17,211 nt of DNA from Pseudonocardiales bacterium. Lineage in GTDB: Bacteria > Actinomycetota > Actinomycetes > Mycobacteriales > Jatrophihabitantaceae. The notes beneath the pieces are model-generated. The model had not been told where the DNA came from. It was given only the letters and a program-made list of their open reading frames with translations, and searched no databases. Of the stretch, positions 1,978-17,211 are shown piece after piece. A program made the translations under genes and the position numbers. How positions within the stretch are numbered: the first letter of the stretch is position 1; every line of letters starts with the position of its first letter. The stretch is taken from contig JAVEEO010000217.1 in the NCBI GenBank assembly GCA_030840415.1, positions 1 to 17,211 of the forward strand, written 5' to 3'.

Positions 1978-2002
1978 GTCGAAAGTGCCCCCTGACCGGC
2001 GC

Positions 2003-2008
2003 TAAGTT
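2003..2008 (+). promoter_or_regulatory. Probable -10 box of a leaderless promoter
   Basis: TAAGTT fits the actinobacterial TANNNT -10 pattern and ends 6 bases before the GTG at 2015. A transcript would therefore begin at or next to the start codon, which agrees with the absence of a Shine-Dalgarno sequence. No clear -35 box is seen. Confidence 0.45.
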
Positions 2009-2014
2009 GGGTCG

Positions 2015-2878: not shown

Positions 2879-2956
2879 CGCCGCTGGTCCTTCTCAGGGG
2901 GCTGCTCGGACGTCGCGCGAATGGGCTGTTCCCGACCGCAGCAGCAGCCCTTCGAT

Positions 2957-2962
2957 TAGGTT
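2957..2962 (+). promoter_or_regulatory. Probable -10 box for the GAF-ANTAR gene
   Basis: TAGGTT matches the TANNNT pattern. It lies 30 bases before the ATG at 2993 and would give a leader of roughly 24 nt that includes a strong ribosome-binding site (GAGGAAGGAA, 2981-2990). No convincing -35 box is visible. Confidence 0.4.
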
Positions 2963-2992
2963 GGAGCGGATCAACGATCTGAGGAAGGAACC

Positions 2993-3757
2993 ATGTCTGA
3001 ATTGCTCCAGCGGGCAGACGCCGCAGTTCCCAGCGCCGAGTCCCGGTCTGATTCCGGCCACCCGGCAGCCCAACCCGGCGATCCCAATGCCTTCGCGGCG
3101 GCGTTGACCGAGTTGTCGCTGACGGTGTCGGCCGGCGACGCCGATCCGCTGACGGTGATCACCGCGGGCGCGGTGGACCTCATTCCGGGTACCGAGTTCT
3201 CGGCCGTGGTGTTGCCGGCCGGTCCCGGACGGCTGGAGACCCGCGCGACCTGCGGACCCGAGACCGTCGAGGTGATCGGACTGCAGAACCAGGTCGGCGA
3301 AGGGCCCTGCCTGGACGCGGTCCGCCAGCTCGAGCCGGTCTGGGCCGCCGACCTGGCGACCGAGACCCGCTGGCCGCTGTTCACCCCGCAGGCCCATCGC
3401 CTGGGCGTGGGCAGCATGTACTGCACCCCGCTGGCCGCCGGGGACCGCGTCTACGGCTCGTTGAGCCTGGCTTCCGGCCGACCGGATGCCTTCGACGAGG
3501 AGTCCCGGACGCTGGCGGCCATCTTCGCGGCCAACGCCACCCTTGCGCTGGCAGGCCAGGAATGGCGGCACAACCTGACCGTCGCGCTGTCCAGCCGGGA
3601 CGTGATCGGCCAGGCCAAGGGAATCCTGATGGAGCGCTTCCGGCTGACGCCGGATGCTGCCTTCGCGCTGCTGGTCAAAGCGTCCCAGGCCACGCACACC
3701 AAGCTGCGCACGGTCAGCGAGGAGCTGTGCCGCACCGGGGTGCTGCCGATCGGCTGA
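2993..3757 (+). CDS. GAF and ANTAR domain-containing transcription antitermination regulator
   Basis: 254 residues. After a ~30-residue flexible N-terminus comes a GAF sensor domain (about residues 33-188; note the block VGEGPCLDAV and SMYCTPLAAGDRVYGSLSLAS). An ANTAR RNA-binding domain follows (about 192-247; SSRDVIGQAKGILMERF, then DAAFALLVKASQATHTKL and VSEEL). ANTAR proteins bind paired hairpins in nascent mRNA and prevent termination; in actinobacteria GAF-ANTAR proteins are often stress or redox regulators. The ligand is unknown. The ATG start is fixed by the GAGGAAGGAA ribosome-binding site at 2981-2990. It sits ~570 bp from the end of the biosynthetic cluster on the opposite strand, and nothing in the sequence shows it controls the cluster. 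Confidence 0.92.
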   Translation: MSELLQRADAAVPSAESRSDSGHPAAQPGDPNAFAAALTELSLTVSAGDADPLTVITAGAVDLIPGTEFSAVVLPAGPGRLETRATCGPETVEVIGLQNQVGEGPCLDAVRQLEPVWAADLATETRWPLFTPQAHRLGVGSMYCTPLAAGDRVYGSLSLASGRPDAFDEESRTLAAIFAANATLALAGQEWRHNLTVALSSRDVIGQAKGILMERFRLTPDAAFALLVKASQATHTKLRTVSEELCRTGVLPIG

Positions 3758-3768
3758 CGGCCTGTCGA

Positions 3769-3784
3769 CCACCCCCCTTGGTGG
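3769..3784 (+). terminator. Weak hairpin downstream of the GAF-ANTAR gene
   Basis: A 5-bp stem (CCACC/GGTGG) closes a 6-base loop, 11 bases after the stop codon. There is no T-tract, and the stem is short, so termination here is only a possibility. Confidence 0.25.
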
Positions 3785-3835
3785 CGTCTGACGGCGGTGC
3801 ACGTTAGCGTCTGGCCCAACAGAAGGGACGAAGCC

Positions 3836-4270
3836 ATGAAAACTCTCGTCGTCATCATCGTCATCCTGGTGGTACTGGCCGTGCTCGCGCTGGTGCTAGT
3901 GCCCCGGATGCGCGGCCAGGCCACCGAGCGCAAGCGAATCCAGGCCCAGCAGCACCTCGAAGAGGCCAACCAGCGCTCCGCCCGGGCCGAATCGGCGCAG
4001 GCCGCGGCCGAGGAGCAGGCCGCCCGGGCCCGCCGGGAGCGGGCCGAGGCCGAACTGCGGGCCACCGACAGCGAGCGCGACGCCCAGGAGCGGCTGGCCG
4101 AGGCCGAGCGGGAGCGGGCCGAGGCGCAGCGGCTCCAGGAGCGCGCCAGCTCGCTGGACCCGCACGTGCACGAGCGCTCGGACACCCTCGAGCCGGGCCT
4201 GCAGGGCCGCCCGGTCACCGACGACCCGCGCCTGCGGGACACCGACGGCGACGGCAACCCGATCCGCTGA
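3836..4270 (+). CDS. Small membrane-anchored coiled-coil protein
   Basis: 144 residues, no recognised family name. Residues ~3-22 form one very hydrophobic Val/Ile/Leu segment, followed by basic residues (RMRGQATERKR), so a cytoplasmic C-terminal part anchored by its N-terminus is likely. Residues ~30-105 are an Ala/Glu/Arg/Gln-rich heptad-like helix (AEEQAARARRERAEAELRA), almost certainly a coiled coil. The tail is acidic and ends DTDGDGNPIR. The ATG at 3836 is preferred over an in-frame GTG at 3797 because AGAAGGGACG (3821-3830) is a good ribosome-binding site and the membrane segment then starts at once. A TAGCGT -10-like box at 3805-3810 could drive it. Similar short proteins occur widely in actinobacteria; a role in envelope stress or membrane organisation would be a guess. 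Confidence 0.8.
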   Translation: MKTLVVIIVILVVLAVLALVLVPRMRGQATERKRIQAQQHLEEANQRSARAESAQAAAEEQAARARRERAEAELRATDSERDAQERLAEAERERAEAQRLQERASSLDPHVHERSDTLEPGLQGRPVTDDPRLRDTDGDGNPIR

Positions 4271-4277
4271 TCGACCG

Positions 4278-4311
4278 CATGGCCCGGCCCGCTGCCGGCG
4301 GGCCGGGCATG
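4278..4311. terminator. Strong bidirectional hairpin between convergent genes
   Basis: A perfect 11-bp GC stem (GCCCGGCCCGC, 4282-4292, with its complement at 4298-4308) closes a 5-base loop. It is extended by a CAT/ATG outer stem with one bulged G. It lies exactly between the stop of the + strand coiled-coil gene and the stop of the - strand aminotransferase gene. There is no long T-tract, as is common in GC-rich actinobacteria. It probably terminates both transcripts. Confidence 0.7.
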
Positions 4312-4329
4312 TGCCGCTGACGGCCGGGG

Positions 4330-5664
4330 CTAGCCGTGCCGGCCGTCGGCCAACTGGTCCTTGATCAGGCTGGCCACCCGGTCCAGGCCGCGCTCGATCT
4401 CCTCGGGCGTCACGGTGCTGCAGCTGAGCCGCAGCGCGTGCACCGGCACACCGGGCTCGTAGAAGTGGTGCATCGACGTCCACAGCACGCCGTAGTCGGC
4501 CGCCGAGCGTTCCAGCAGGGCGTCGTCGACAACGAACGGAACGGTAACCACGACGAAGAACCCGCCGATCGGTACGTTCCAGCGCACGCCGAGGTCCGGA
4601 TCGGGGAACCGGGCGGCCAGGCCGGCCACCATCTGCCGCATGTTGGCGGTGTAGACCGCGCGCTCGCGCTCGTTGGCCCGCAGCAGGCTGCAGTCGTTGT
4701 CCAGCAACTTTCCGCCCACGATCGCCTGGGCGATCGGCGAGGTGTTGACCGTCAGCATGCTCTTGAGCTTGGACAGCTGGTCGGCGAGCAGGCTCCGGCC
4801 GCCGGTGGGGTCAACCACCGATTGGTCGGCCACCAGGTAGCCCACCCGGACGCCGGGCATCGCCGTCTTGGCGAACGATCCGAGGTAGACCACCGTCCGC
4901 TGCTCGTCCAGCGCCTTGAGGGTCGGCTGGCGCTGGGAGTCGGCATGCGGGAACAGCCCGTACGGGTTGTCCTCCAGCAGCAGGATGCCCTCGTCCGCCG
5001 CGATCGCGAGCAGCCGCTTGCGGTCCTCGATGTCCATGCTGACCCCGGACGGGTTGGCGAAGTCGGGCATCACGTAGCAGGCACGCGGCCGCAGCCCGGC
5101 GGCCCGCGCCCGGTCGAGCTGGTCGCGCAGGTCGTCGAGGTCGACCCCGCCGGCCCCGGCCGCGACCGGCAGCACCGGCAGCTCGACCAGCCGGGCCGCG
5201 CCGGTCAGGCCGACGTAGGTCGGGGTCACCGCCAGCAGCACGTCCGACGGTGAGGTGCGCAGCGCTCGCAGGATGAGGAACATCGCCTCCTGGCAGCCGA
5301 CGGTGACCACGATCGACTCGGGGTCGACGGTGATGCCCTCGTCCCGGGCCAGGTTGGCGGCGATCAGGCCGTGCACTATGCCCTTGGTCCGGCCGTACTG
5401 GAACAGCGTGCGGCGCACCTGCTCCTCGGAGTAACCCAGATCGTCTTGCAAATGCTGGCAGAACCGGTCCAGGTAGCGCTGCAGGGAATCGATCTCGAAG
5501 AACTGCTCGGCGGGCCGGCCGGCCGCCAGCGACACCGCGTCCGGGTACCGGGAGGAGATCTCGTTGAGGAAGTTCATCGAGTTCAGTGCCGGATCCTCCA
5601 GCGCCCCGAACAGTTGTGCGGTGTGCAGCTCGCCGGGCTGCACGCGGTCGGCGGTGGTGCTCAT
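4330..5664 (-). CDS. hpgT: 4-hydroxyphenylglycine aminotransferase
   Basis: A 444-residue PLP-dependent class I/II aminotransferase. The N-terminal block ALEDPALNSMNFLNEI, followed by SSRYPDAVSLAAGRP, is the hallmark I know from HpgT of glycopeptide clusters. Other fold features are VVTVGCQEAMFL, CYVMPDFANPSG and LLEDNPYGLFP. The PLP Schiff-base lysine is K266 in GSFAKTAMPG. HpgT converts 4-hydroxybenzoylformate to L-4-hydroxyphenylglycine, classically with tyrosine as amino donor, which regenerates 4-hydroxyphenylpyruvate for HmaS. It overlaps hmo by 4 bases (ATGA), with AGGGGAG as ribosome-binding site, so the two are co-translated. The family call rests on sequence resemblance plus adjacent hmo and nearby hmaS; specificity for Hpg is inferred but strongly supported by context. 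Confidence 0.88.
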   Translation of the reverse strand: MSTTADRVQPGELHTAQLFGALEDPALNSMNFLNEISSRYPDAVSLAAGRPAEQFFEIDSLQRYLDRFCQHLQDDLGYSEEQVRRTLFQYGRTKGIVHGLIAANLARDEGITVDPESIVVTVGCQEAMFLILRALRTSPSDVLLAVTPTYVGLTGAARLVELPVLPVAAGAGGVDLDDLRDQLDRARAAGLRPRACYVMPDFANPSGVSMDIEDRKRLLAIAADEGILLLEDNPYGLFPHADSQRQPTLKALDEQRTVVYLGSFAKTAMPGVRVGYLVADQSVVDPTGGRSLLADQLSKLKSMLTVNTSPIAQAIVGGKLLDNDCSLLRANERERAVYTANMRQMVAGLAARFPDPDLGVRWNVPIGGFFVVVTVPFVVDDALLERSAADYGVLWTSMHHFYEPGVPVHALRLSCSTVTPEEIERGLDRVASLIKDQLADGRHG

Positions 5665-6752
5665 CGGCCACTCCCCTGGTCGGTGCGCAGCTCGCGAACG
5701 GCGGCCAGGTCCGGGCACCCGGCCAGCGTCAGCGACTGGCAGAACTCGGTACGCAGCAGTTCCAGTGCCCGGGCCGCTCCGGCGGCACCGTCGAGGGCCA
5801 GCGCCCACAGCAGCGGCCGGCCGAGCAGCACTCCGCGGGCTCCGAGCGCCAGGGCACGCAGCACGTCCATGCCCCCGCGGATCCCGCTGTCCAGCAGCAC
5901 CTCGCACTGCTGGCCCACCTCGGTCACCACGCCGGCCAGCGCGGTGACGCTGGCCGGTGCCCCGTCGAGCTGACGGCCGCCGTGGTTGGACACCACCACC
6001 GCGTCGGCGCCGAGATCGACCGCCCGCCGGGCATCGCGTGGATCGAGAATCCCCTTGAGCGCAAGGGGCAAGCTGGTGCGCCCGCGCAACCATTCCAGGT
6101 CCGCCCAGCTCAGCGCCGGGCCGAACAGCTCGCTGGTGTGAGCGGCGATCGCGGATTCGCCGGCCCGCGCCCGGTGCGCGCTGCTCGCCGCGCCGTCGGT
6201 GAGGTTGGCGGCCAGCACGTCGACGGGTAGCGCGAAGGAGTTGCGGACGTCGCGCAGCCGCCGCCCCATGATCGGCACGTCGAGGGTGACCACCAGTGCC
6301 GCACTGCCGGCATCCTCGGCGCGCGCGATCAGCTGCTCCAGCCGGCGCCGTTCGGCCAGCCAGTACAGCTGGAACCAGATGGTGGCCCCGGCCCGCGCCA
6401 CCTCCTCGACACCGCAACTGCTCAGCGCGCTGAGCATCAGCGGAACCCCGGCCTGAGCGGCCGCCTCGGCCATCGCGACCTCGCCGGCCGGGTGGACCAG
6501 GCGCTGGTAGGCCATCGGCGCCACCGCGACCGGCATCGACATCGGCGTGCCGAGCAGGGTGGTCTGAGTCCCTTGCAGGACGCCACCCAGCACCCGCGGG
6601 TAGACCGCCACCGCGTCCAGCGCCTGCCGGTTGGCTCGCAGCGTGATCTCGGATCCGCTGCCGCCCTCGATGAAATCCCAGACCTCCGGCGCCAGCACCG
6701 ACCGGGCACCGGCTGCCAGCTCGTCCAGCGACAGCGTGACATCAGGAGTCAC
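5661..6752 (-). CDS. hmo: 4-hydroxymandelate oxidase (FMN-dependent 2-hydroxyacid oxidase)
   Basis: 363 residues, close to the ~357 of known Hmo. It belongs to the glycolate oxidase/lactate dehydrogenase FMN family. The N-terminus (SLDELAAGARSVL, then DFIEGGSGSE) matches Hmo. Active-site features visible are AVAPMAYQRL, Y130 in WFQLYW, the FMN-contacting lysine in LALKGIL, and catalytic H257 with R260 in SNHGGRQLDG. The C-terminal FMN-phosphate region is DSGIRGGMDVLRALALGA and VLLGRP. It oxidises 4-hydroxymandelate to 4-hydroxybenzoylformate using O2. The GTG at 6752 is chosen because it is preceded by AGAGG at the right spacing and matches the family N-terminus; a GTG at 6767 overlapping the upstream stop is the alternative. 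It starts 11 bp after the hydrolase gene and overlaps hpgT by 4 bases. Confidence 0.9.
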   Translation of the reverse strand: MTPDVTLSLDELAAGARSVLAPEVWDFIEGGSGSEITLRANRQALDAVAVYPRVLGGVLQGTQTTLLGTPMSMPVAVAPMAYQRLVHPAGEVAMAEAAAQAGVPLMLSALSSCGVEEVARAGATIWFQLYWLAERRRLEQLIARAEDAGSAALVVTLDVPIMGRRLRDVRNSFALPVDVLAANLTDGAASSAHRARAGESAIAAHTSELFGPALSWADLEWLRGRTSLPLALKGILDPRDARRAVDLGADAVVVSNHGGRQLDGAPASVTALAGVVTEVGQQCEVLLDSGIRGGMDVLRALALGARGVLLGRPLLWALALDGAAGAARALELLRTEFCQSLTLAGCPDLAAVRELRTDQGSGR

Positions 6753-6763
6753 CGGGCTGCCTC

Positions 6764-7717
6764 TCACGACGCCGTCCCCAGTCGCGTGCGCAGGAAGGCC
6801 ACGGCCTGGTCCACGGCCCGCCGGCCGCCGTCGAGCGTCGCCGACATCAGGAAGAAGCCGTGCATCATGCCGTCGTAGCGGGTCAACTCGGTGGGCACCC
6901 CGGCGGCCTGCAACCGGCGCGCGTACCGCTCGCCCTCGTCGCGCAGCGGGTCGTACTCGGCGGTGATCACCAGTGCGGGAGGCAGGCCGCTGTGGTCGGG
7001 GGCCAGCAGCGGCGAGGCCAGCGGGTCGCGGCCGTCCTCGGGCGAGTTCAGGTAGTGACCCCAGTACCAGGCCACCGACCGGCGGTTGAACATGGCCGGG
7101 TCGTCGCTGCCGGCCAGCGACGGCGTGCCGGCGGCGTAGCAGGTGTTGGGATACACCAGCAGTTGGGCGGCCAGCGCCGGGCCACCGTGTTGCCTGGCCA
7201 GCAGCGTGACGGCCGCGGCAAGGTTGCCGCCGGCGCTGTCGCCGCCGACCGCCAGCCGGCCGGCGTCGATCCCCCACTCCCCGGCGTGCCCGGCGATCCA
7301 GCGAACGGCGTCGTAGCAGTCGTACACCGCGACCGGGAACTTGTGCTCCGGCGCCAGCCGGTAACCGGCCGCGATCACGACGCAGCCGGCGGCGTTGGCC
7401 AGGGTGCGGCAGATGCCGTCACAGGTCTCGATCTGCCCCAGGGTCCAGCCGCCGCCGAAGAAGTACACCAGCGCCGGCCGCGGCTCCGATCCCCCGGCGG
7501 GCGCTGCCGGCCGGTACAGCCGCAGCGGCAGTTCGCCGTCGTCCACCGGCATCGTCAGGTCCAGGACCTCGGCGACCGACTCGGGGACGCCGGCCCCGGC
7601 CTGGATCTCGGCCAGGTCGGCGGCCCGGGCCTCGGCAAGCGTCTGTTCGTAGAGCGGGGTCACCCGCTCGGCCAGCCGGCGGGCACGCCAGGCCGCCACC
7701 TGCGGGTCCAGCGGCAT
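6764..7717 (-). CDS. Alpha/beta hydrolase, HSL-type esterase
   Basis: 317 residues of the hormone-sensitive-lipase (bHSL) alpha/beta hydrolase family. The catalytic triad is S161 in GGDSAGG, D256 in EYDPLRDEGE and H286 in MMHGFF; GYRLAPEHKFP is a typical family block. The oxyanion-hole motif is FGGGW (87-91) where most members have HGGG. The ATG at 7717 has GAGGG at good spacing; a GTG two codons earlier (7723) is the alternative. It sits between the oxygenase gene (31-bp gap) and hmo (11-bp gap) in the same transcript. It may cleave an ester or thioester, or release a product from the carrier protein; this is inference from position. The physical substrate cannot be read from the sequence. 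Confidence 0.85.
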   Translation of the reverse strand: MPLDPQVAAWRARRLAERVTPLYEQTLAEARAADLAEIQAGAGVPESVAEVLDLTMPVDDGELPLRLYRPAAPAGGSEPRPALVYFFGGGWTLGQIETCDGICRTLANAAGCVVIAAGYRLAPEHKFPVAVYDCYDAVRWIAGHAGEWGIDAGRLAVGGDSAGGNLAAAVTLLARQHGGPALAAQLLVYPNTCYAAGTPSLAGSDDPAMFNRRSVAWYWGHYLNSPEDGRDPLASPLLAPDHSGLPPALVITAEYDPLRDEGERYARRLQAAGVPTELTRYDGMMHGFFLMSATLDGGRRAVDQAVAFLRTRLGTAS

Positions 7718-7748
7718 CGTCACGCCCTCGGGGGCCGAGCGGTCCGCC

Positions 7749-8657
7749 TCACGCGCGCCACAGGGTCGGGCAGTACGCCGGGTCGGAGTAGTCGGGAAAG
7801 CCCTCGGCGGTGCGCCGGACCAGGCTGTCGTGGTTGTAGCCGGCCAGCGTGCCGTCCGACAGCGGGAATTCCTGGAAGGCGTTCGCGCCGTCCTGCAGGT
7901 GCAGCGAGATCGCCCGGCGCGGCCGCGCGCTCAGGTTCGGCCCGCTGCCGTGGTAGGTCCGGCAGTGGTGGAAGCTCATGTGTCCCCTGGGGATCACGAT
8001 CGGAACCTTGACGACCTCGGCGCCGTTGAAGGCGGCGTTCTCGGCCAGCATGACGTCCAGTTGGGCCTTGTCCCGCTCGGCGAAGTGCCGCACCGCGCTG
8101 TCATCGGTACCGGTCTCGCGCCACCGGTGGCTGCCGTCGACCATCGTGATGGTGCCCATCTCCACGTCGCAGTCGTGGAACGGGATGAAGGCGGTCAGCA
8201 TCCGGTTGGACGTGCAGCAGGACCAGTAGTGCTTGTCGAAGTGCCAGGGCACCACGTTGGTCGGCTCGCCGGCGATCGGCGGCTTGTAGATCATGGTGGA
8301 CTGGAAGATCCGGATCTCCTCGGCCTGGGCCAGCCGGGCCGCAACCGCGCCGAGCAGCGGCTTGCGCAGGATCCGGGCGATCGCGTCGCTCTCGTAGTGC
8401 ACGTAGTCGTTGTGCCGCTGGACCTGGCCGTGCTCGGGCTGCCAGTAGGCCAGCTTCGCCGGCTGGCTGGGCAACCGGCGGTCGCGGGCGCCGTCGTAGT
8501 AGTCATCGCTGGCCGCCACCAGTGCGTCGACCTCGTCGTCGCTGAACAGCTTGCCCGACAGGTACCAGCCGTGTTCGGCGTAGAACCGCACGTCGTCGTC
8601 GGAGGGCAGTAACGCCTCTTCGTCGGCGGTGAGGCTGAACTCCGTGCTGAGCGTCAT
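7749..8657 (-). CDS. Phytanoyl-CoA dioxygenase (PhyH)-family Fe(II)/2-oxoglutarate oxygenase
   Basis: 302 residues with the PhyH-type double-stranded beta-helix. The iron ligands are visible: H139 and D141 in WHFD, and distal H236 in RTYHGSG. The arginine for 2-oxoglutarate is R247 or R248 in SARPRRAISLH. A cupin-like MGTITMVDGSHRW block is also typical. Members hydroxylate carboxylic acids, amino acids or carrier-bound intermediates. The start ATG overlaps the hmaS stop (ATGA, 8654-8657), so it is translationally coupled to the committed step of the Hpg pathway, which suggests it acts on an Hpg-pathway intermediate or the final product. This is not a component of the classical Hpg pathway, so its presence marks a departure from glycopeptide clusters. 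The reaction is unknown. Confidence 0.85.
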   Translation of the reverse strand: MTLSTEFSLTADEEALLPSDDDVRFYAEHGWYLSGKLFSDDEVDALVAASDDYYDGARDRRLPSQPAKLAYWQPEHGQVQRHNDYVHYESDAIARILRKPLLGAVAARLAQAEEIRIFQSTMIYKPPIAGEPTNVVPWHFDKHYWSCCTSNRMLTAFIPFHDCDVEMGTITMVDGSHRWRETGTDDSAVRHFAERDKAQLDVMLAENAAFNGAEVVKVPIVIPRGHMSFHHCRTYHGSGPNLSARPRRAISLHLQDGANAFQEFPLSDGTLAGYNHDSLVRRTAEGFPDYSDPAYCPTLWRA

Positions 8658-9760
8658 CGTTCCACTTCCATCGGTTCGGGGTCCGGATCGGCGGCCATCG
8701 GGGTCGGTGCGTGCACCATCTCACGTTCCTTGGCCTCGTACAGGGCTTTGATGTTGCCGCTGCCGAAGGTTCGGGCACCGCGCCGTTCGATGACCTCGAC
8801 GAACAGCGTGCGGCGGACGTGGGTGGACTCGGTGAAGATCTGCAGCAGTTGGCCCCAGTGGTCGCGGTCGACCAGGATGCCGTGCCGGGCCAGGTCGGCG
8901 ACGGGCGCGTCCACCGGGCCGACCCGCGCCTCGAGGCTGCGGTAGTAGGCGTCCGGCGTGGTGAGGAAGCGGACCCCGCGGCCGCTGAGCCGGTCCACGG
9001 TGGAGACGATGTCGTCGGTGATCAGCGCGATGTGCTGCACCCCGGCCCCGGCGTGCCACTGCAGGAAGTCGTCGATCTGCCCGGGGCGCCGGGCCGTGTC
9101 CGGCTCGATCAGGGTGAAGGTGACCCCGCCGGACGGGCTCTGCACCACCACCGAGTTCATGCCCTGGCCGGCCACGTCGATGTACTCGGTGAAGATCTGG
9201 GCGAAGCCGTACACCTCCTGGTAGAAGTCCGCGGTGGCCTGCAGCTTGCCGGCCGGCACACAGATCGCCAGGTGGTCGATCCTCTCGAACATGGCGTGCT
9301 CGATCGGCTCGCGCTCGATCATCTCGATCGGGCCCGGCAGGAAGCTGGGACCCTCGCGCTGCACCAGCCGGTGCACCACGTCGCCGAAGCCGCCGACGTC
9401 GGCGAAGCTGACGGTCGAAGTGCCGTCGGTGAAGGACCTCGGCGGCGACATCGGCTCCGCGCCGCGACTGACCAGCTCGGCGAAGCAGTCGGCCACGTCG
9501 TCGACCCGCATCGCCACCACCGCCACGCCGTCGCCGTGCTGCTGGACGTAGTGACAGGCCGAGTGATCGGCGTACAGGCCGGAGGTCAGCACCAGTTGCA
9601 CCTCGCCGTGTTCCATCAGCAGCGACCGCTGGCCGAACAGCCCGGTCTCCGGGCCGCCCCGGCCGCCGACCTCCAGGCCGAAGGCCGCGCCGAAGTAGTA
9701 GGCCGCCTGCTGGGCGTCGCCGACGAACAGCTCCAGGTGGTCGATTCCGAAGATGTTCAT
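8654..9760 (-). CDS. hmaS: 4-hydroxymandelate synthase
   Basis: 368 residues, two vicinal-oxygen-chelate domains, of the 4-hydroxyphenylpyruvate dioxygenase (HPPD) family. Iron ligands are H163 (IDHLAI), H243 (VQHIAL) and E322 (FVEVIER). The C-terminal helix block FGSGNIKALYEAKE is present. Features separating it from HPPD and matching the Amycolatopsis HmaS as I recall it are GMNSVVVQSPSG (S203) and TFTLIEPD, where HPPDs have an Asn in an NEP motif. The enzyme decarboxylates and hydroxylates 4-hydroxyphenylpyruvate at the benzylic carbon, giving 4-hydroxymandelate. The neighbouring hmo and hpgT decide the call. The start ATG has GAGGGGA 7 bases upstream. A 145-bp gap separates it from the preceding ketosynthase-like gene, so it may have its own promoter. 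Confidence 0.92.
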   Translation of the reverse strand: MNIFGIDHLELFVGDAQQAAYYFGAAFGLEVGGRGGPETGLFGQRSLLMEHGEVQLVLTSGLYADHSACHYVQQHGDGVAVVAMRVDDVADCFAELVSRGAEPMSPPRSFTDGTSTVSFADVGGFGDVVHRLVQREGPSFLPGPIEMIEREPIEHAMFERIDHLAICVPAGKLQATADFYQEVYGFAQIFTEYIDVAGQGMNSVVVQSPSGGVTFTLIEPDTARRPGQIDDFLQWHAGAGVQHIALITDDIVSTVDRLSGRGVRFLTTPDAYYRSLEARVGPVDAPVADLARHGILVDRDHWGQLLQIFTESTHVRRTLFVEVIERRGARTFGSGNIKALYEAKEREMVHAPTPMAADPDPEPMEVER

Positions 9761-9827
9761 TGGGAGATCCCCTCGGGTCGGTGGTGCGGCTGGACACCGG
9801 AGACGGCGACGGCTGCCGGCAGGTCGG

Positions 9828-9854
9828 TGTCCGGCCCTCTGCGGCGGCCGGACA
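9828..9854. repeat. Inverted repeat in the gap upstream of hmaS
   Basis: Perfect 9-bp arms (TGTCCGGCC and GGCCGGACA) flank a 9-base spacer. It lies in the 145-bp gap between the ketosynthase-like gene and hmaS. It could be an attenuating hairpin in the - strand transcript or an operator for the hmaS sub-operon; no T-tract follows. Confidence 0.5.
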
Positions 9855-9905
9855 GCTGGCCTACATTCTGCCCGCCGGTCCCGGCGCTGCAGACACAGGT
9901 TCCGA

Positions 9906-10514
9906 TCATGGCATCGCCCCGCTGGCCAGCAGCAGCGCGTGGGCCCGGTCCCGTGACACTGCCGGGGCTGCCGGGTCCGAGGAGACGGCGCCGGAATCGG
10001 CCTGCCGGACATCCGCCTGCTCGGGATTGGTCTGCTCGGGATCGGTCTGCTCGGGATCGGCCTGCTCGACCAGGATCAGCAGCACCTCGTCGGCATCGCC
10101 GTCGGCCAGCAGCAGTTCCGCTTCGGCCATCCCGTCGGCGAGCGGGTCGAGAACCGGGCTGATGCAGACCACCGGGCCGCCGAGGCCCCAGTGGGCGCTC
10201 ACCTGCCCGGCCACGCTGTTGGGCGCGGCCTGGAAGAACAGCAGCGGTCCCACCCGCCGCCCGGCCGCCACCCGGTCGCGGACGTGCCCGGCGCTGACCA
10301 CGTCATTGCCTGCGCTGACCAGCAGGACGGCGGTGCGCTCCCGGCCGGTCGCCGAGGTGGCCGCCGGAGCACCGGCCAGGCAGCCGTCGGCGGCAGCGGC
10401 CACCAGCGGGCTGAACGAGGACAGCACGTAGCCCGGCAGGGCCGGTGGCTCCGCCGGCTGCCCGGGCGGCCAGCGGTACTCGCTCAGCACGGTCAGTGCG
10501 GGCAGGGTTGTCAT
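9906..10514 (-). CDS. Short ketosynthase-like protein (chain-length-factor-like, no catalytic Cys)
   Basis: 202 residues. It resembles the N-terminal ketosynthase-like half found in Ketoacyl-synt_2 (PF13723) proteins of aryl-polyene-type clusters: FSPLVAAAADGCL, RTAVLLVSAGND, GPLLFFQAAPNSVAGQVSAHWGLGG with following PVVCISPVLDPLADGMAEAELLL, and DEVLLILVEQ. The position of the ketosynthase cysteine carries Leu/Asp, so it should not be a condensing enzyme. A structural partner of the adjacent KS is the natural inference. The start overlaps the KS stop by 4 bases (ATGA, 10511-10514), which supports a KS/partner complex. Residues ~147-171 are a tandem pentapeptide tract (QADPE, QTDPE, QTNPE and two decayed units), followed by an Ala-rich tail; this region is probably disordered. 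Confidence 0.65.
   Translation of the reverse strand: MTTLPALTVLSEYRWPPGQPAEPPALPGYVLSSFSPLVAAAADGCLAGAPAATSATGRERTAVLLVSAGNDVVSAGHVRDRVAAGRRVGPLLFFQAAPNSVAGQVSAHWGLGGPVVCISPVLDPLADGMAEAELLLADGDADEVLLILVEQADPEQTDPEQTNPEQADVRQADSGAVSSDPAAPAVSRDRAHALLLASGAMP
10000..10074. repeat. 15-bp tandem repeat, five units
   Basis: Units start at 10000, 10015, 10030, 10045 and 10060. The middle ones read GCCTGCTCGGGATTG and twice GTCTGCTCGGGATCG; the outer ones are diverged. They lie in frame in the ketosynthase-like gene and encode a Q-A/T-D/N-P-E pentapeptide on the - strand. Whole-codon units mean copy-number change would not disrupt the frame. Confidence 0.85.
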
Positions 10515-11587
10515 CCGGCACGCACCAGCAGCGCGGTGTTCGCGCCACCGAAGGCGGAATTGAGGCTGAGCGCGTACGGGCTGGTCACCGGCCGCGGCGA
10601 GTCCACGATCACGTCGAGTGCGCAGCTGTCGTCCGGGCCGAGGTAACCGGCGTTCACCGGCAGCTTGCCGGCCCGAAGCGACAGCACCGTGATCAGCAGT
10701 TCCAGCAGGCCGGACGCCTCCAGCCCGTGGCCATGCACCGCCTTGGTCGAACTCACCGGCACCCGGTCGGCGAACTCGCCGAGGGCGCGGTGCAGCGCGC
10801 GGGCCTCGGCTGCGTCGGACAGCTGCGTTCCGGTGGCGTTGGCATTGACGTAGCCGATCTGGTGCGCCTGGACACCGGCGCGACCCAGCGCCGCGTCGAT
10901 CGCCCTGGCCAGACCACGGCCGTCGGGAGCGGGCTGGCACGGGTGGTGGGCATCGCCGGCCCGGCCCCAGCCGACCAGCTCGGCGACCGGTTCGCTCGCG
11001 GCGGCGGACTCGAACACCATGGCTGCCACGGCGTCGCCGAGCAGCAGGCCCTGCCGGCCCGCGCTGAACGGGCGGACCGCACCGTCGGTGGCAAGCGCCT
11101 GCCCCGCGTCGAACAGCGCGAACTGGTCCGGTTCCACCAGGTATCCGGCGGCCACCACCACCCGGTCGGCACCGCGCCGGATCAGCGCGGCGGCGTCGGC
11201 CACCGCAGTGCTGGCCGAAACGCAGGCACCGATGTAGACCCGGCCGGCGCCGGCCAACCCGGCCTGCCGGGCGAGTTCGCGGGCGCAGCTGGACGCGGCG
11301 GGAGAGCCGTGCAAGGCGAGCAGCAGCGGGGTGGCCGCCCGCTGGGCCGAGCTCAGCCGGGCCTCGGCGCAGGCCGTCTCGATCACCCCGGCCAGCTCGG
11401 CGGTCAGGGTGCCGGCCCCGGCGAGGGTGGCCGCGACACCGACCCGCCGGCCGCTGACATCGAAGCGGTCGACCGGCCCGAACGCCGCGGTCGCCGACAG
11501 TGCCGCCGCCAGTTGCGGCTCGGTCCCCCGGCCCAGCGCGCTGACCGCTGCCAGGCCGGTGATCGCGACGGGTGGCAGATCAGCCAC
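10511..11587 (-). CDS. Atypical beta-ketoacyl synthase (Cys-Asn-His)
   Basis: 358 residues with the FabF-like thiolase fold: first strand VAITGLAAVSALG; nucleophile C122 in IGACVSAS; DGAVRPFSAGRQGLLLGDA; and C-terminal LNSAFGGANTALLV. The second catalytic His is H287 in KAVHGHGLEASG with the conserved Lys (K282) 5 residues earlier. Where FabF-type enzymes have NAHGTGT, this protein reads NANATGT, so the first catalytic His is replaced by N250; the N250-H287 spacing of 37 equals H303-H340 in E. coli FabF. It is shorter than the usual ~410 residues. The GTG start overlaps the ACP stop by 8 bases, and the stop overlaps the next gene by 4. It may transfer or decarboxylate acyl groups rather than perform normal condensation (inference). 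Confidence 0.85.
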   Translation of the reverse strand: MADLPPVAITGLAAVSALGRGTEPQLAAALSATAAFGPVDRFDVSGRRVGVAATLAGAGTLTAELAGVIETACAEARLSSAQRAATPLLLALHGSPAASSCARELARQAGLAGAGRVYIGACVSASTAVADAAALIRRGADRVVVAAGYLVEPDQFALFDAGQALATDGAVRPFSAGRQGLLLGDAVAAMVFESAAASEPVAELVGWGRAGDAHHPCQPAPDGRGLARAIDAALGRAGVQAHQIGYVNANATGTQLSDAAEARALHRALGEFADRVPVSSTKAVHGHGLEASGLLELLITVLSLRAGKLPVNAGYLGPDDSCALDVIVDSPRPVTSPYALSLNSAFGGANTALLVRAG

Positions 11588-11822
11588 GGCTGGCCCGCAC
11601 CGACTCGCCCAGCAGCTGCACCGCGTCCGACACGGTCCGCAGCCGCGCCAACTCCTCGTCGTCGAGGTCGAGTTCGACGTCGTAGCGCTGCTCGACCTGG
11701 TGCACCAGCCAGGCCACCTCCATCGAACTCAGCCGCTCCAGCGTCGAGTCGGGGCCGCGGGTGCCGAGGCCGGCGAGCATGGCCAGCACGTCTTCCCTCT
11801 GCAGGGCCGGGGAATCGGGCAT
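11580..11822 (-). CDS. Acyl carrier protein
   Basis: 80 residues, the right length and predicted helical pattern for a discrete ACP. The phosphopantetheine attachment serine is S33 in RLSSMEVAWL; helix 3 continues with VHQVEQRYDVELDLDDEEL. In most carriers the Ser is preceded by Asp (DSL or DSM); here it is Ser (SSM). The ATG at 11822 lies 8 bases after GGAGG; a GTG one codon earlier (11825) is equally possible. It opens the ACP-KS-KS-like translational chain, and the divergently placed phosphopantetheinyl transferase is its likely activator. The ligase gene upstream is its likely loader. Confidence 0.85.
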   Translation of the reverse strand: MPDSPALQREDVLAMLAGLGTRGPDSTLERLSSMEVAWLVHQVEQRYDVELDLDDEELARLRTVSDAVQLLGESVRASRG

Positions 11823-11841
11823 CACAGAGTCCTCCCCTCGA

Positions 11842-11859
11842 GGTCGGCAGCGGCCGACC
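11842..11859. repeat. Short inverted repeat in the ACP leader / divergent promoter region
   Basis: 7-bp arms (GGTCGGC and GCCGACC) flank a 4-base loop in the 128-bp region between the divergent ACP and phosphopantetheinyl transferase genes. It could be a regulator site or a leader hairpin in the ACP transcript. No clear -10 for the ACP direction was found. Confidence 0.4.
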
Positions 11860-11937
11860 CCGCCGGCACGGCACCGGCTGTCGGCGGTCCGGCCGCGGCG
11901 AGGCGACGATCACCCGACGAGACTGCCCGGCACTGGG

Positions 11938-11943
11938 TAGGTT
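11938..11943 (+). promoter_or_regulatory. Probable -10 box of the phosphopantetheinyl transferase gene (leaderless)
   Basis: TAGGTT fits TANNNT and ends 7 bases before the GTG at 11951, so the transcript would start at the start codon. No Shine-Dalgarno is present, which agrees with leaderless translation. Confidence 0.45.
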
Positions 11944-11950
11944 CTGCTGC

Positions 11951-12631
11951 GTGGACACGGTGCACGTCTGGCTGGTGCCGTCCGGGCATCGCTCGCGCGG
12001 CCGTGCCCGGCAGCTGCTGGCCGAGGCCGGTGCTCGGGTGCTGGGCACCGAACCGGAGCGGCTGGCGGTCGGCCGCGCCGCCTCCGGCCAGCCCACCGTG
12101 CGGGCCGGAGCGGACCGGGCCTGGGTGAGCCTGAGCTACGGCCCCGGCGTGCTGGCGGTGGCCGCCAGCCCGGCCGGCCCGGTCGGCATCGACGTCGAGG
12201 GCCCGACCAGGCCCGAGGTGGTCCGGCTGGCCGACCGCTGGTTCGATCCGGCTGAGGCGGCCTGGCTGCGCGACCAGCCGGCGGACGCCCGGCCGGCGGC
12301 GTTCCTGCTGCTGTGGACGGCGAAGGAGGCACTCGGCAAGGCGCTGGGCACCGGGTTGCGAGGTGGCGGCCTGCGGCGCCGGGTGCCCCTGCCGCCGGTT
12401 ACCGACGGCAGCTTCGGGGCGCTGCCGGACGGCCTGTGGCTGGCCCATCCGGCGGTGACTGCGCCGCTGGTGCTGGCGGTCGCCGCCGGCACACCGGTGT
12501 CGGCGGTCCTGCTCCACCCGGCCGCCGCCCTGGTCGGCGCCGACGCTGCTCACGGCGCCGCTCCGGACCCGCTCGCCCGCAGCACGGCCCGGTCGCGCAC
12601 CAGCTTGCCGGTGGTGGTGCGAGGGAATTGA
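11951..12631 (+). CDS. 4'-phosphopantetheinyl transferase (Sfp/Gsp type)
   Basis: 226 residues. It carries the PPTase signatures: Mg-binding D81 and E83 in VGIDVEGP, and the WTAKEALGKALG motif (W122-G132, with E126 and K130). SLSYGPGVLAVA before it matches the S-x-S-H/Y-type substrate block. It transfers phosphopantetheine from CoA to a carrier protein, most likely the ACP encoded divergently 128 bp away. The GTG at 11951 is chosen because the conserved N-terminal region begins there and a -10 box lies 7 bases upstream. The last 82 bases overlap the 3' end of the ligase gene on the opposite strand; the ~27 residues coded there (Arg/Ser-rich) are outside the catalytic core. Confidence 0.85.
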   Translation: MDTVHVWLVPSGHRSRGRARQLLAEAGARVLGTEPERLAVGRAASGQPTVRAGADRAWVSLSYGPGVLAVAASPAGPVGIDVEGPTRPEVVRLADRWFDPAEAAWLRDQPADARPAAFLLLWTAKEALGKALGTGLRGGGLRRRVPLPPVTDGSFGALPDGLWLAHPAVTAPLVLAVAAGTPVSAVLLHPAAALVGADAAHGAAPDPLARSTARSRTSLPVVVRGN

Positions 12632-13956
12632 TCGAAGCTCCGGTAGACCTGCGGCAGCTTGAACCGGGCCAGCAGGGTGCCCAGCCGGGCCTCGACGTCG
12701 GCGAGCTGGGAACCCGGCTCCAGCTGCAGGTAGGCCACGATCGCCTCGTCGAACAGCACCACCGCCGCGACCACGCCGGGCAGCGCGTCCAGGGTGGCCT
12801 CCACCTCGGCGAGGTCGACCTGCAGGCCGCCGATGGTCACCTGCGAGTCCAGCCGCCCCAGGATCCGCACCAGCCCGGTGTCGGCGTCCACCGTGCCCGC
12901 GTCCCGGGTGCGCAGCCAGCCGTCGGACCACCGCTCGGGCACTGCCTGGCCCAGGTACGGTGACGCCGCCCGCGCGATCTGCAACTCCCCGTCCACGGCG
13001 CGGACCGCGATGCCCGGTGCCGGCCGGACCGCCGGCCGGTGGCTGCCGTCCAGGTCGGTGCCGATCACCCCGACCTCGGTCATGCCGTACATGTTGCCCA
13101 ACGGCACCCCGAACCGGTTCCCGAAGGCGGCCGCGGTCGCTGCCGGCACCAGCTCGCCGCCGGTGATCATCCGGCGCAGCTGGGCAGGCCGCCGGTCCGG
13201 GGCCGTGGAGCTGAGCAGGTTGATGTGGAACGGCACGCCCAGCACGGTGGCCGGGCTGGCGGTGGCCTCGATCGCGTCCAGGATGCTGTCACCGGTCAGC
13301 CGCTGCGGCGGCACCAACTCGACGCGGGCGTGCAGCCCGTACAGCAGGCCGCCGACCAGGCCCAGCACGTGCACCATCGAGGGCAGCAGGACGATGCGCT
13401 CACCCGGCAGCGCCACCCCGTCGATCTGGGTGTAGCGCCGGATCTCGGCGATCAGGTCCGCGGCGGTCCGGCCGATCACCTTCGACGGCCCGGTCGAGCC
13501 CGAACTCAGCTGCACGACCGCGTGCTCGCTGCCGGTCGGCTCGTCGCCGTGCCGGGTGATGGTGTCCTCGACGTCGAAGAAGACCCGCAGCCCGCCGGCC
13601 ACCCGGCGCGGAGCGACGATCACCTGCGGCAGCAGTCGCTGCCGGGCCTGCTCCACCTCGTGGTCGGTGAGCCGGTAGTCGAGCAGGATCGCCTGGGCGC
13701 CCAGTTGCCAGACCGCCAGCAGGTTGGCCACGTAGGCCAACGACGGCGGCAGCCGCAACGCCGCGGCCCCGCCCGAGCGCAGGCCCGCGGCGGTCAACCG
13801 CTCGCGCCGGTCGGCCACCATCCGGCGCAGCCCGGCGCGATCGACGACCTCGGGCACCCGGAAGCAGACTCCGGAGTCGGGACCGGCGAGCAGCACCTCG
13901 TCCACCCAGCCGGCGTCGGTCGCCCACGACGAATCCGCCCGCTGTTCCATGGTCAT
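12550..13956 (-). CDS. AMP-dependent acyl/aryl acid ligase (free-standing adenylation enzyme)
   Basis: 468 residues of the ANL superfamily. Motifs: P-loop SSGSTGPSK (151-159), A4-type LPSMVHVLGL (191-200), A5 NMYGMTEVG (288-296), RTRDAG with D352, hinge GRLDSQVTIGG (367-377) and catalytic K451 in TTTGKLVRD. It adenylates a carboxylic acid and would load it onto the ACP or CoA. The A4 region lacks the Asp that binds the alpha-amino group in NRPS amino-acid domains (FDxS), so a fatty or aromatic acid is more likely than Hpg itself (inference). The ATG at 13956 has GGAG 8 bases upstream. Frames upstream of it lack coding character. The gene is first in the cluster's reading direction; its end overlaps the PPTase end by 82 bp, tail to tail. 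Confidence 0.87.
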   Translation of the reverse strand: MTMEQRADSSWATDAGWVDEVLLAGPDSGVCFRVPEVVDRAGLRRMVADRRERLTAAGLRSGGAAALRLPPSLAYVANLLAVWQLGAQAILLDYRLTDHEVEQARQRLLPQVIVAPRRVAGGLRVFFDVEDTITRHGDEPTGSEHAVVQLSSGSTGPSKVIGRTAADLIAEIRRYTQIDGVALPGERIVLLPSMVHVLGLVGGLLYGLHARVELVPPQRLTGDSILDAIEATASPATVLGVPFHINLLSSTAPDRRPAQLRRMITGGELVPAATAAAFGNRFGVPLGNMYGMTEVGVIGTDLDGSHRPAVRPAPGIAVRAVDGELQIARAASPYLGQAVPERWSDGWLRTRDAGTVDADTGLVRILGRLDSQVTIGGLQVDLAEVEATLDALPGVVAAVVLFDEAIVAYLQLEPGSQLADVEARLGTLLARFKLPQVYRSFDQFPRTTTGKLVRDRAVLRASGSGAAP

Positions 13957-14270: not shown

Positions 14271-15011
14271 ATGGTGCTGGGGCTGCCCGACGGCGTGCTG
14301 GCCTGCCTGTTCGACCTCGACGGCGTGCTGACCGACACCGCGGCGGTGCATGCCGCGGCCTGGAAGCACACCTTCGACGATTTCCTGCGAGAGCGCGACG
14401 GCGACGGCTTCGAGCCGTTCGACTCCGAAGCCGACTACGACCGCTACGTCGACGGCAAGCCGCGCGCCGACGGGGTCCGGGACTTCCTGGCCGCCCGCGG
14501 GATCGAGCTGCCCGAGGGCGCGCCGGACGATCCCGGCTCGGCGCCGACCGTGCACGGCCTGGGCAACCGCAAGAACGAGGAGTTGAACCGCCGGATCGCC
14601 TCCGACGGCGTCCGGGTCTTCGAGGGCTCGCGGCGCTACCTGCGGGCCGCCGAGCAGGCCGGGCTGCGCCGGATCGTGGTGTCCTCCAGCGCCAACACCG
14701 AGCTGGTCCTGCGCACCACCGGCCTGGACCGCTACGTCGAGGGCCGGATCGACGGCAACACCCTGGCCGAGCGGCACCTGCCGGGCAAGCCGGCACCCGA
14801 CTCGTTCCTGGCCGGAGCCGAGCTGGCCGGGGTCACGCCGGCACAGGCGGCCGTCTTCGAGGACGCCCTCGCGGGGGTGGCGGCCGGCCGGGCCGGCTCC
14901 TTCGGTTGCGTGGTCGGCGTGGACCGGGTCGGCCAGGCCGACGAGCTGCGCGCGCACGGAGCCGATCTTGTCGTGCGCGACCTGGCCGAGCTGCTGGACG
15001 GGCAGCGGTGA
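14271..15011 (+). CDS. Beta-phosphoglucomutase-like HAD phosphatase/mutase
   Basis: 246 residues of the HAD superfamily with a helical cap inserted after motif I. Motif I is [10 protein letters not shown] with nucleophile D15 and general acid/base D17. Motif II is VVSSS, motif [18 protein letters not shown], motif [17 protein letters not shown]. The cap carries [11 protein letters not shown] and [10 protein letters not shown], typical of beta-phosphoglucomutase. It would convert beta-glucose 1-phosphate, made by an inverting GH65 phosphorylase, to glucose 6-phosphate. The ATG has GAGGGG at good spacing. Its TGA overlaps the GTG start of the GH65 gene (GTGA), so the two are co-translated. The pair matches the Rv3400-Rv3401 order of M. 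tuberculosis (recalled, not searched). Confidence 0.9.
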
Positions 15012-17211
15012 TCACCGACGCCCGGTTCCCGATCGAGCCGTGGCAGGTGCGCGAGGTCGGCCTGGACTTCGGCATGCTGGCCCAGAGCGAATCGATCTTC
15101 GCCCTGTCCAACGGGCACATCGGCCTTCGCGGCAACCTGGACGAGGGCGATCCCAGCGGGCTGCCCGGCACGTACCTCAACTCCTTCTACGAGGCCAGGC
15201 CGCTGCCGTACGCCGAAGCGGGCTACGGCTATCCCGAGTCCGGCCAGACGATCGTCAACGTCACCAACGGCAAACTGATCCGGCTGTTGGTCGACGACGA
15301 GCCGTTCGACCTGCGCTACGGCACGCTGGCACGCCACGAACGGGTGCTCGACCTGCGCAGCGCCACCCTGCGCCGGACGGTCGAGTGGATCTCGCCGGCC
15401 GGCACCACGCTGCGGCTGCACTCCGAGCGGCTGGTCTCCTTCACCCAGCGGGCCATCGTGGCGATCCGGTACCGGGTCGAGGCGGTCGGCGCGCCGGTGC
15501 GGGTGGTGGTGCAGTCGGAGCTGGTGGCCAACGAGGAGTTGCCCGCCCAGTCCGGGGACCCCAGGGTGGCCGCGGCGCTGCGCAACCCGCTGGAGGCTCT
15601 CGAGCACAGCGCCAGCGGCAACCGCTCCTCGCTGCTGCACGCCACCCGGCGGTCACAGCTGCGGATGGCCTGCGCCGCCGACCACCTGCTGGCCAGCGAC
15701 GCCGAGCTCGATTCGCACACCTTCGTCCAGCCCGACTGGTCCCGGACGACCGTCGGCGCCCGGCTGCAGCCCGGGCAGGCGCTGACGGTGACCAAGTTCG
15801 TGGCCTACGGCTGGTCCAGCCAGCGGACCACCCCCGCGCTGCGCGACCAGGTCGACGCTGCCCTCTCGGCCGCACTGGACACCGGCTGGACCGAACTGCT
15901 GGCCGAGCAGCGGGGCTACCTGGACGATTTCTGGAACGGCGCCGACGTCGAGCTCGACGGTGACGACGCGGTGCAGCAGGCGGTCCGGTTCGGCCTGTTC
16001 CACGTGCTGCAGGCCGGCGCCCGGGCCGAGCAGCGGGCGATCCCGGCCAAGGGCCTGACCGGACCCGGCTACGACGGGCACGCGTTCTGGGACACCGAGA
16101 GTTTCGTGCTGCCGGTGCTGACGGCCACCGCGCCGAAGGCCGCCGCCGACGCGCTGCGCTGGCGGCACTCGACGCTGGACCTGGCCACCGAGCGGGCCCG
16201 CACCCTGCAGCTGGCCGGCGCCGCCTTCGCCTGGCGCACCATCCGGGGCCAGGAGACCGGCGGGTACTGGCCGGCCGGTACCGCGGCCTTCCACATCAAC
16301 GCCGACATCGCGCTGGCCGCGGTCCGGCACGTGCACTGGACCGGCGACGAGGACTTCGAACGCAGCTGCGCGCTGCCGTTGCTGGTGGCCACCGCCCGGC
16401 TGTGGCACTCACTGGGCTACGCCGGTGCCGACGGCTGCTTCCACATCGACGGCGTGACCGGTCCGGACGAGTACAGCGCCCTGGGCGACGACAACACCTA
16501 CACCAACCTGATGGCGGCCCGGAACCTGACCGCGGCCGCCGACACCGCCCGGCGCTGGCCGGTCGAGGCCGCCGCGCTGCGGGTGAGCCCGGCCGAGCTC
16601 GAGGCCTGGCAGGCAGCGGCGGCGACCATGGCGCTAGCCTACGACGAGCAGCGCCGGATCCCGGAGCAGGATCGGGGTTATCACCGCCACCAGGTGTGGG
16701 ACTTCGCCGCCACCGCCGCCTCGACCGGGTACCCGCTGCTGCTGCGGGCGCCGTACTTCCAGATCTACCGCAAGCAGGTGGTCAAGCAGGCCGACCTGGT
16801 ACTGGCGCTGCACTGGTGCGGGGATTCCTTCAGCCTCGCCGAGAAGACCCGCGCCTTCGACTACTACGAGCAGATCACCGTCCGGGACTCCTCGCTGTCG
16901 GCGTGCTCGCAGGCCGTGGTCGCGGCCGAGGTGGGCCACCTGGAACTGGCGCACGCCTACCTCCGCGAGGCGGCGCTGATGGACCTGCGCGATCTGGAGC
17001 ACAACACCCGCGACGGCGTGCACGTCGCCTCGTTGGCCGGCTCCTGGATAGCGCTGGTCTGCGGCTTCGGCGGCCTGCGCGACCACGGCGGCCGGCTCAG
17101 CTTCGCACCGCGGCTGCCCGAGGCCATCTCCCGGCTGTCCTTCGCGGTGCGCTGGCGGGAATTCACGCTGCGGGTGGAGGTCACAGCCGACCGGGTGCGC
17201 TACCGCATCGA
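15008..17211 (+). CDS. Glycoside hydrolase family 65 disaccharide phosphorylase (3' partial)
   Basis: The frame runs from the GTG at 15008 to the window edge without a stop (734 codons visible; the family is usually ~750-800). Family features: N-terminal [16 protein letters not shown] and [22 protein letters not shown] at the start of the barrel; general acid E488 in [19 protein letters not shown]; and phosphate-site [16 protein letters not shown]65 enzymes cleave maltose, trehalose, kojibiose or related disaccharides with phosphate, inverting to beta-glucose 1-phosphate, which the coupled beta-phosphoglucomutase then uses. The linkage specificity cannot be read by eye. Translation depends on the 4-base overlap with the preceding gene; no independent ribosome-binding site is clear. 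Confidence 0.92.

Follow-up and report, generated by a model that had tools for sequence, protein, structure and literature searches.

The gene block

The DNA considered here (the window) spans contig C183 from end to end (17211 b) and comes from a Pseudonocardiales bacterium whose assembly comprises 569 contigs and 4.14 Mb at 85.6% completeness. Between positions 4330 and 13956 it carries a block of ten genes, in which homologues of the enzymes of 4-hydroxyphenylglycine (Hpg) synthesis (HmaS, Hmo and HpgT) stand together with a ketosynthase (KS), a half-size KS-like partner (CYF), an acyl carrier protein (ACP) and a free-standing ligase (Lig). All ten genes are present where a preliminary description of the sequence had placed them, in tight order. 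Nine lie on the minus strand and the phosphopantetheinyl transferase gene (PPT) alone on the plus strand. HpgT and Hmo, PhyH and HmaS, and CYF and KS overlap by 4 b each, KS and ACP by 8 b, while PPT and the 3' end of Lig form a convergent pair overlapping by 82 b. Scanning genome contigs with the KS led to 39 named loci, which serve for comparison below; gene ends and short genes in these relatives are approximate.

For HmaS (8654..9760, minus strand), a 4-hydroxymandelate synthase homologue of the HPPD family with a Pfam Glyoxalase domain of HPPD/HmaS type, the closest solved protein is 2r5v (290.9 bits), which we take to be an HmaS structure; the HPPD 1t47 scores 228.6 bits. The C-terminal motif has Ile in place of Phe (NIKAL), as do 36 of 36 aligned family members, a set that excludes the L020 and L023 copies (tblastn matches). 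The HPPD-like protein of the same genome, on contig C369, has Phe at that position (NFKAL). This residue presumably marks HmaS against HPPD, so that the motif and the best solved match both point to HmaS. Hmo (5661..6752, minus strand, GTG start; PF01070, FMN_dh, 1.6e-123) is a homologue of FMN-dependent 4-hydroxymandelate oxidase. Its top five solved matches all belong to that enzyme (344-349 bits, the best being 5zzp at 348.5) and the next is L-lactate oxidase at 327 bits, matches by which it is assigned as a 4-hydroxymandelate oxidase. HpgT (4330..5664, minus strand; PF00155, Aminotran_1_2, 1.3e-30) is a class I/II aminotransferase homologue and the predicted Hpg transaminase, with orthologues 53-85% identical in KS-bearing genomes. 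Together, the three homologues are predicted to make L-Hpg.

Two further genes lie among them. PhyH (7749..8657, minus strand; PF05721, 9.1e-23) encodes an oxygenase that is by family of the Fe(II)/2-oxoglutarate type, with SnoK/SnoN as solved relatives. Between it and Hmo is an alpha/beta hydrolase, an HSL/LipP1-type esterase (Est; 6764..7717, minus strand; PF07859, Abhydrolase_3, 2.3e-75; NCBIfam LipP1 368 bits, cut-off 350).

An altered ketosynthase and its half-size partner

The KS (10511..11587, minus strand, GTG start) is FabF/AmcF-like and matches the N- and C-terminal ketoacyl-synt families (PF02801, 7.5e-29). The catalytic Cys and the second His are kept and the first catalytic His is Asn, giving a Cys-Asn-His active site (NANATGT vs. 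NAHGTST in FabF). Only 2 of 40 KS keep both catalytic His (C-H-H); in the other 38, one is replaced (28 C-N-H and 10 C-H-Q). The 40 are those of the window and the 39 loci, many from one genus and hence non-independent. Thirty-nine were read from an alignment and the L037 KS, missed by the script, by eye from a tblastn stretch. The L019 KS retains C-H-H beside the same genes. Outside the 40, the active site is C-N-H in seven genomes (G397, G398, G424, G204, G441, G488 and G430) and C-H-H in G461.

CYF (9906..10514, minus strand; PF13723, Ketoacyl-synt_2, 4.7e-8) is a Cys-less protein of 202 aa that aligns to the N-terminal half of the KS. Its predicted model (pLDDT 84) has the KS/chain-length-factor fold, with 6qsp_B as top Foldseek match. 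AmcF-AmcG-AmcB-AmcH make up the KS-CYF type II polyketide synthase (PKS)-like system for cispentacin biosynthesis (Hibi et al., 2023, PMC10698177). Profile comparison by hhalign (97.4%, E 1.5e-11) identifies CYF as a remote AmcG homologue at the sequence level; a half-size, AmcG-homologous partner of KS fold thus adjoins the KS and overlaps it. CYF scores 35.9 bits with the AmcG model, below the cut-off of 80, and the KS 138.7 bits with the AmcF model, below the cut-off of 325. In the tree, the KS of the window and its relatives form a separate clade (support 100/100) and share one side of a branch with AmcF (90/86). All 15 AmcF read are C-H-H, unlike the window KS. These are 15 of the 18 loci over the cut-off; L161, L171 and L174 did not pass a filter that required an open frame as well as the Cys motif of the active site and made no demand on the His residues. 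Two other loci, L091 (G204:C1:1892000-1911900) and L092 (G182:C4), hold a weak AmcG-like match and several KS genes; neither contains a best match to the window KS, CYF or Lig.

The free-standing ACP (11580..11822, minus strand) has an LSSMEV motif; it matches no Pfam family, and its NCBIfam ACP matches are weak (best 4.8e-6). PPT (11951..12631, plus strand, GTG start; PF01648, ACPS, 9.5e-17) recurs on the opposite strand in 18 of 39 loci at >38% identity.

Lig (12550..13956, minus strand; PF00501, AMP-binding, 2.5e-27) is a free-standing adenylate-forming acyl ligase that lacks the amino-acid-binding Asp. Its pocket letters, approximate in that the short ligase aligns to the ruler with a gap at one position, are identical in 36 of 41 members, differ from those of AmcH and contain no Asp. 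A role as an Hpg-activating adenylation (A) domain was rejected for this reason: the absent Asp speaks against Hpg as the direct substrate, as far as an alignment can tell, and does not identify the acid taken. Lig matches only four of six AmcH (29-36% over 101-214 residues) and lacks the pocket Arg present in all six, so that the similarity appears, from sequence, to be at superfamily level only. Simple orthology to AmcF/AmcG/AmcH is ruled out by the model cut-offs, the KS active site and the ligase pocket. Close relatives of Lig (e.g., P0122) are labeled 3-hydroxy-4-methylanthranilate adenylyltransferase in some sources; this would fit an aryl acid, but the name is automatic and proves nothing.

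Recurrence in relatives

The 39 loci come from Micromonospora, Kribbella, Catellatospora, Dactylosporangium, Actinophytocola, Kitasatospora and other genera, and from strains that include Micromonospora halophytica DSM 43171 and Kribbella sandramycini ATCC 39419. ACP is found in all 39, Lig in 38, CYF in 37, HmaS in 35 and PhyH in 34, with four loci (L014, L015, L023 and L043) truncated at contig ends. The gene set is therefore not due to chance. Clustering adds further conserved genes: a second ACP (ACP1) in 37 of the 39, a second ligase (LIG2) in 34, E1alpha and E1beta in 33 each and DUF3050 in 29. A FabF-like KS2 is usual, and an ATP-grasp-like protein, named by eye in the absence of a Pfam match, occurs in 22.

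Within 10-kb flanks Hmo is seen in only 4 of the 39 loci, Est in 6 and HpgT in 7 (one of them, L034, cut at the locus end). That the Hpg genes are limited to few relatives was nevertheless rejected, since HpgT was found farther out. It lies 19-23 kb from the KS in six genomes (G204, G441, G456, G463, G488 and G493) and, counted over the 12 other KS-bearing genomes, is present in 11. Seven of these twelve were examined over wide flanks (G204, G398, G430, G441, G488, G397 and G461); G456, G463, G483 and G493 fall outside that set, and the G424 contig spans 8.2 kb only. All nine core genes share one cluster in G204 (C1 1168416-1191929), G398 (C1 154063-186491), G430, G441 and G488; four of these five genomes were picked once the position of HpgT was known. 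In G397, the nine are packed into a compact operon on C16, and the shared hypB, GAF-ANTAR and luciferase-like monooxygenase neighbors place it at the chromosomal site that the block occupies in the window. The association of the Hpg route with a ligase, an ACP, an altered KS and a half-size partner, noted in the preliminary description, is thus conserved in relatives.

Are nonribosomal peptide synthetases (NRPS) part of these clusters? Condensation domains were sought in six frames, as codon-usage gene calls miss some long frames (e.g., the NRPS on C535), and none was found in the stretches of G204, G441, G488, G430, G461, G397 C16 and the window. G398 has one, at about C1:144313-146361, some 8 kb outside its cluster and adjoining a long PKS-like frame and a stand-alone A-type protein of another cluster. 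Conservation of the core without an NRPS, which the preliminary description had proposed as support for a distinct pathway, accordingly holds for the five wide-flank clusters with nine genes, none with a Condensation domain inside, and not for G461, which is without the Hpg genes. The clusters of G398 and G430 do contain stand-alone Condensation-like proteins, 27-33% identical to the Cdom protein of the NRPS locus described below and too diverged for the six-frame query. Those of G204, G441 and G488 hold a transporter and a stand-alone AMP-binding protein with no Asp in its pocket letters (Pfam scan of the G204 copies).

Some accessory genes are of interest in their own right. LIG2 of L011 (11703-13295) scores 507 bits with the 3-aminoavenalumate diazotase model AvaA6 (cut-off 975; next model 154), a likeness that may bear on nitrogen chemistry. 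The DUF3050 proteins, such as L011:16639-17436 and L108:3125-3937, belong to a haem-oxygenase-like family that includes MgoB, according to PMC3298696. In Micromonospora loci such as L011 (300-4371), the core is adjoined by a KS/KS-like pair accompanied by cupin and ACP-cyclase genes, likely an aromatic type II PKS and perhaps one for spore pigment; the cupin gene occurs in 14 of 39 loci, every one Micromonospora.

Related genes on other contigs

The genes that accompany the block in relatives have counterparts on other contigs of the window's genome. C105 carries a LIG2 orthologue (57% identical to that of L011) together with NRPS genes, MbtH, an ABC transporter, a thioesterase, a glycosyltransferase, KSIII and an ACP. 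On C274, E1beta and KS2 are 74 and 64% identical to the L011 copies, ACP1 82% to the L047 copy and E1alpha 72% to the L032 copy, and DUF3050 is on C25. In G397, such genes are contiguous over 32 kb (C26:229107-261490; locus B): three NRPS modules, MbtH, LIG2, the ABC transporter, thioesterase, glycosyltransferase and KSIII, and further ACP3, a P450, Cdom, E1alpha/beta, KS2 and ACP1. G398 has a full 32-kb cluster (locus A) at the window's chromosomal site and, on C7 and C30, a second copy of locus B. LIG2 is found in three of three same-genus genomes with the KS and in none of the four tested without it. In these four (G396, G399, G400 and G402, with G401 and G403 outside the test), which lack the block, neither LIG2 nor, at E 1e-60, HpgT was found.

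The preliminary description took the block to be complete and free of NRPS. Completeness does not hold, as most relatives have further conserved genes whose relatives lie here on C105, C274 and C25. The absence of an NRPS is correct for the window, with no Condensation domain in six frames, and not for the genome, which has 21 Condensation matches and an NRPS beside LIG2. As for an NRPS with Hpg-specific A domains, which the preliminary description named as speaking against its view, an NRPS does co-occur, but none of the codes read is Hpg-like. In locus B these codes are DALGLGGTF on C105 and DIVGMALIY and DILTLGVVW on C161, which would continue C105 by the gene order of G397. The NRPS protein on C105 (L088:1989-7838) ends unusually: behind its condensation, adenylation and thiolation domains (C-A-T) comes a Lant_dehydr_N-like domain (5.6e-20). 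Its counterparts in G397 and G398 are of similar length and 71-72% identical.

A proposed split pathway and its alternatives

Our tentative reading, put forward with close to even confidence, is a split pathway: the window would carry its Hpg/KS-CYF half, and relatives of the remaining genes lie on other contigs, one of which carries an NRPS. The co-occurrence of LIG2 and HpgT with the block, together with the loci of G397 and G398, makes this the best reading, not a proof. Lig, ACP and KS-CYF would likely build a second, ACP-bound acyl unit.

How might such a pathway run? HmaS would convert 4-hydroxyphenylpyruvate to 4-hydroxymandelate, Hmo would oxidize this to 4-hydroxybenzoylformate and HpgT would yield L-Hpg. 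PPT would activate the ACP, onto which Lig would load a non-amino acid, by our guess 4-hydroxymandelate or 4-hydroxybenzoylformate; KS-CYF would extend or cyclize the bound unit once, and PhyH would oxidize it. Both products would then go to the second locus, where the NRPS peptide and an acyl chain from E1alpha/beta, KSIII and KS2 would be joined to them; glycosylation and export would follow. Where relatives have no modular NRPS, the joining may fall to the ATP-grasp-like ligase or to a stand-alone condensation-type protein. More speculatively, and rather doubtfully, a KS-CYF with one lost catalytic His would represent a further branch of type II PKS-like chemistry, acting on a tyrosine-derived aryl acid from its own hydroxymandelate synthase and coupling this acid to L-Hpg with no need of an Hpg-coded NRPS module, and so make an unknown class of aryl metabolites in Micromonospora, Kribbella, Catellatospora, Actinophytocola and Jatrophihabitans.

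Several observations weigh against the split pathway. C183, C105, C274 and C25 would be physically linked only by extrapolation from relatives. Gene calling gave no DUF3050 in locus B of either G397 or G398, and since G398 has a full locus A and a separate locus B, the two could be parallel pathways. Six-frame reading of a subset of this genome's contigs gave 24 adenylation-type rows (one contig twice, several rows incomplete or non-NRPS), none of which resembles what we take to be the Hpg-type code. Entry of Hpg into an NRPS product is thus unexplained by the A domains read and would need another route or an A domain on an unread contig. The 24.6-kb contig of G461 has Lig, both ACPs, KS, CYF and KS2 only; the genome has no HpgT match, and neither HmaS nor PhyH is called on the contig. 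HmaS and PhyH are likewise absent within the flanks of L021 and L048. The substrate of Lig is a guess, and AmcH, its nearest characterized analogue, loads 2-oxoglutarate (PMC10698177). As to the Hpg route itself, the HmaS homologue also passes the NCBIfam 4HPPD model (355.6 bits vs. a cut-off of 277), a match that alone cannot separate HmaS from HPPD. No solved match of HpgT is named HpgT, so its putative transaminase role draws on aminotransferase family and neighborhood only. With the family name of the one indecisive and the other lacking a namesake, L-Hpg therefore stands as a prediction.

Alternatively, the ten genes could be self-sufficient and make a small, NRPS-free Hpg compound, as the preliminary description proposed. 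The compact operon at one site in two species of the genus (the window and G397), the unrelated genes that flank it and the PPTase included in the window (the G397 block has none) favor this. It nevertheless seems unlikely, as LIG2, ACP1 and E1alpha/beta belong to the same cluster in most relatives, both genomes with the compact block hold LIG2, KS2, ACP1 and E1alpha/beta elsewhere, and the four genus members without the block also lack LIG2. For a small Hpg product that is N-acylated or hydroxylated, the data speak neither way. We consider it slightly less probable still that HmaS serves only a 4-hydroxymandelate/4-hydroxybenzoyl branch on the ACP while Hmo and HpgT feed a different product, such as the locus B peptide: in G204, G441 and G488, HmaS-PhyH lie near KS-CYF and Est-Hmo-HpgT start about 17-19 kb from the KS, yet in the window and in G397 a single operon contains them all.

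The remaining alternatives concern the chemistry of KS-CYF. Lig-ACP-KS-CYF could follow the four-gene logic of the cispentacin "minimal type" (PMC10698177), with Lig loading 2-oxoglutarate and KS-CYF making an ACP-bound oxocyclopentene dicarboxylate that is later coupled to Hpg. The remote homology of CYF to AmcG and the position of the KS with AmcF in the tree are in its favor. The chances of this are low, given the scores of KS and CYF below the AmcF and AmcG cut-offs, the C-N-H site where all 15 AmcF read are C-H-H, the partial matches of Lig to AmcH and its missing pocket Arg. The replaced His in nearly all KS might instead suggest an acyltransferase without decarboxylative extension, passing the Lig-loaded acyl group to the amine of Hpg or to a hydroxyl group to give N- or O-acyl Hpg. 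Enzymes of the FabH type condense with Cys-His-Asn, however, so one lost His does not exclude condensation, and L019 retains C-H-H beside the same genes; transfer of this kind is accordingly a low-probability account.

Surroundings of the block

Downstream of HpgT, a G+C-rich hairpin (4268..4332, minus strand; fold -37.1 kcal/mol) is a possible terminator without a T run. A T-tailed terminator was searched for at this hairpin and none was found. The "strong terminator" of the preliminary description is not confirmed: the z-score is only -1.68, and 11 of 200 shuffled sequences are equally stable. In the flanks (1-4270 and 14271-17211), a luciferase-like monooxygenase, a GAF-ANTAR protein and a HAD phosphatase were recognized by eye, and a long ORF, by eye sugar-phosphorylase-like, runs off the contig; the flanking sugar-metabolism genes are likewise assigned by eye only. 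The left-flank genes are common to G397 and G398.

Significance and comparison with known systems

In glycopeptides and related antibiotics, Hpg is a building block used by NRPS. Here, its predicted synthesis is tied to a KS-CYF with a rearranged active site, in a cluster family that is widespread and in several genomes has no Condensation domain inside the cluster. This points to a different use of Hpg or its precursors and to a product class not found described; culture-collection strains among the named loci allow the product to be sought directly. The parts are of known kinds; in the open-access literature, with few subscription papers in scope, the combination was not found described and no paper was recognized on this gene set. 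Among the "minimal type" KS-CYF clusters, the part of PMC10698177 covered here names no Hpg-linked one.

The KS-chain-length-factor pairs of aryl polyene (ApeO-ApeC, 6qsp) and ishigamide (6kxd) biosynthesis also combine a KS with a smaller, Cys-less partner of KS fold. Here, the partner is shorter, at 202 aa, and the ten genes include no ketoreductase or dehydratase. With the cispentacin Amc system, the block shares an adenylating ligase, a free ACP, an N-terminally short KS and an adjoining half-size KS-like partner. It differs in its own KS clade, the replaced catalytic His and a ligase related at superfamily level only; it has no hotdog AmcE-like protein or class III aminotransferase among the ten genes, and relatives regularly keep HmaS and PhyH nearby. 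HmaS, Hmo and HpgT form the L-Hpg operons of the glycopeptide, CDA and nocardicin clusters. The block resembles these in its homologues of the three Hpg enzymes and in the HMS-type Ile. Unlike them, it has no Hpg-coded NRPS module that could be found, and its Hpg enzymes are instead tied to a type II PKS-like core.

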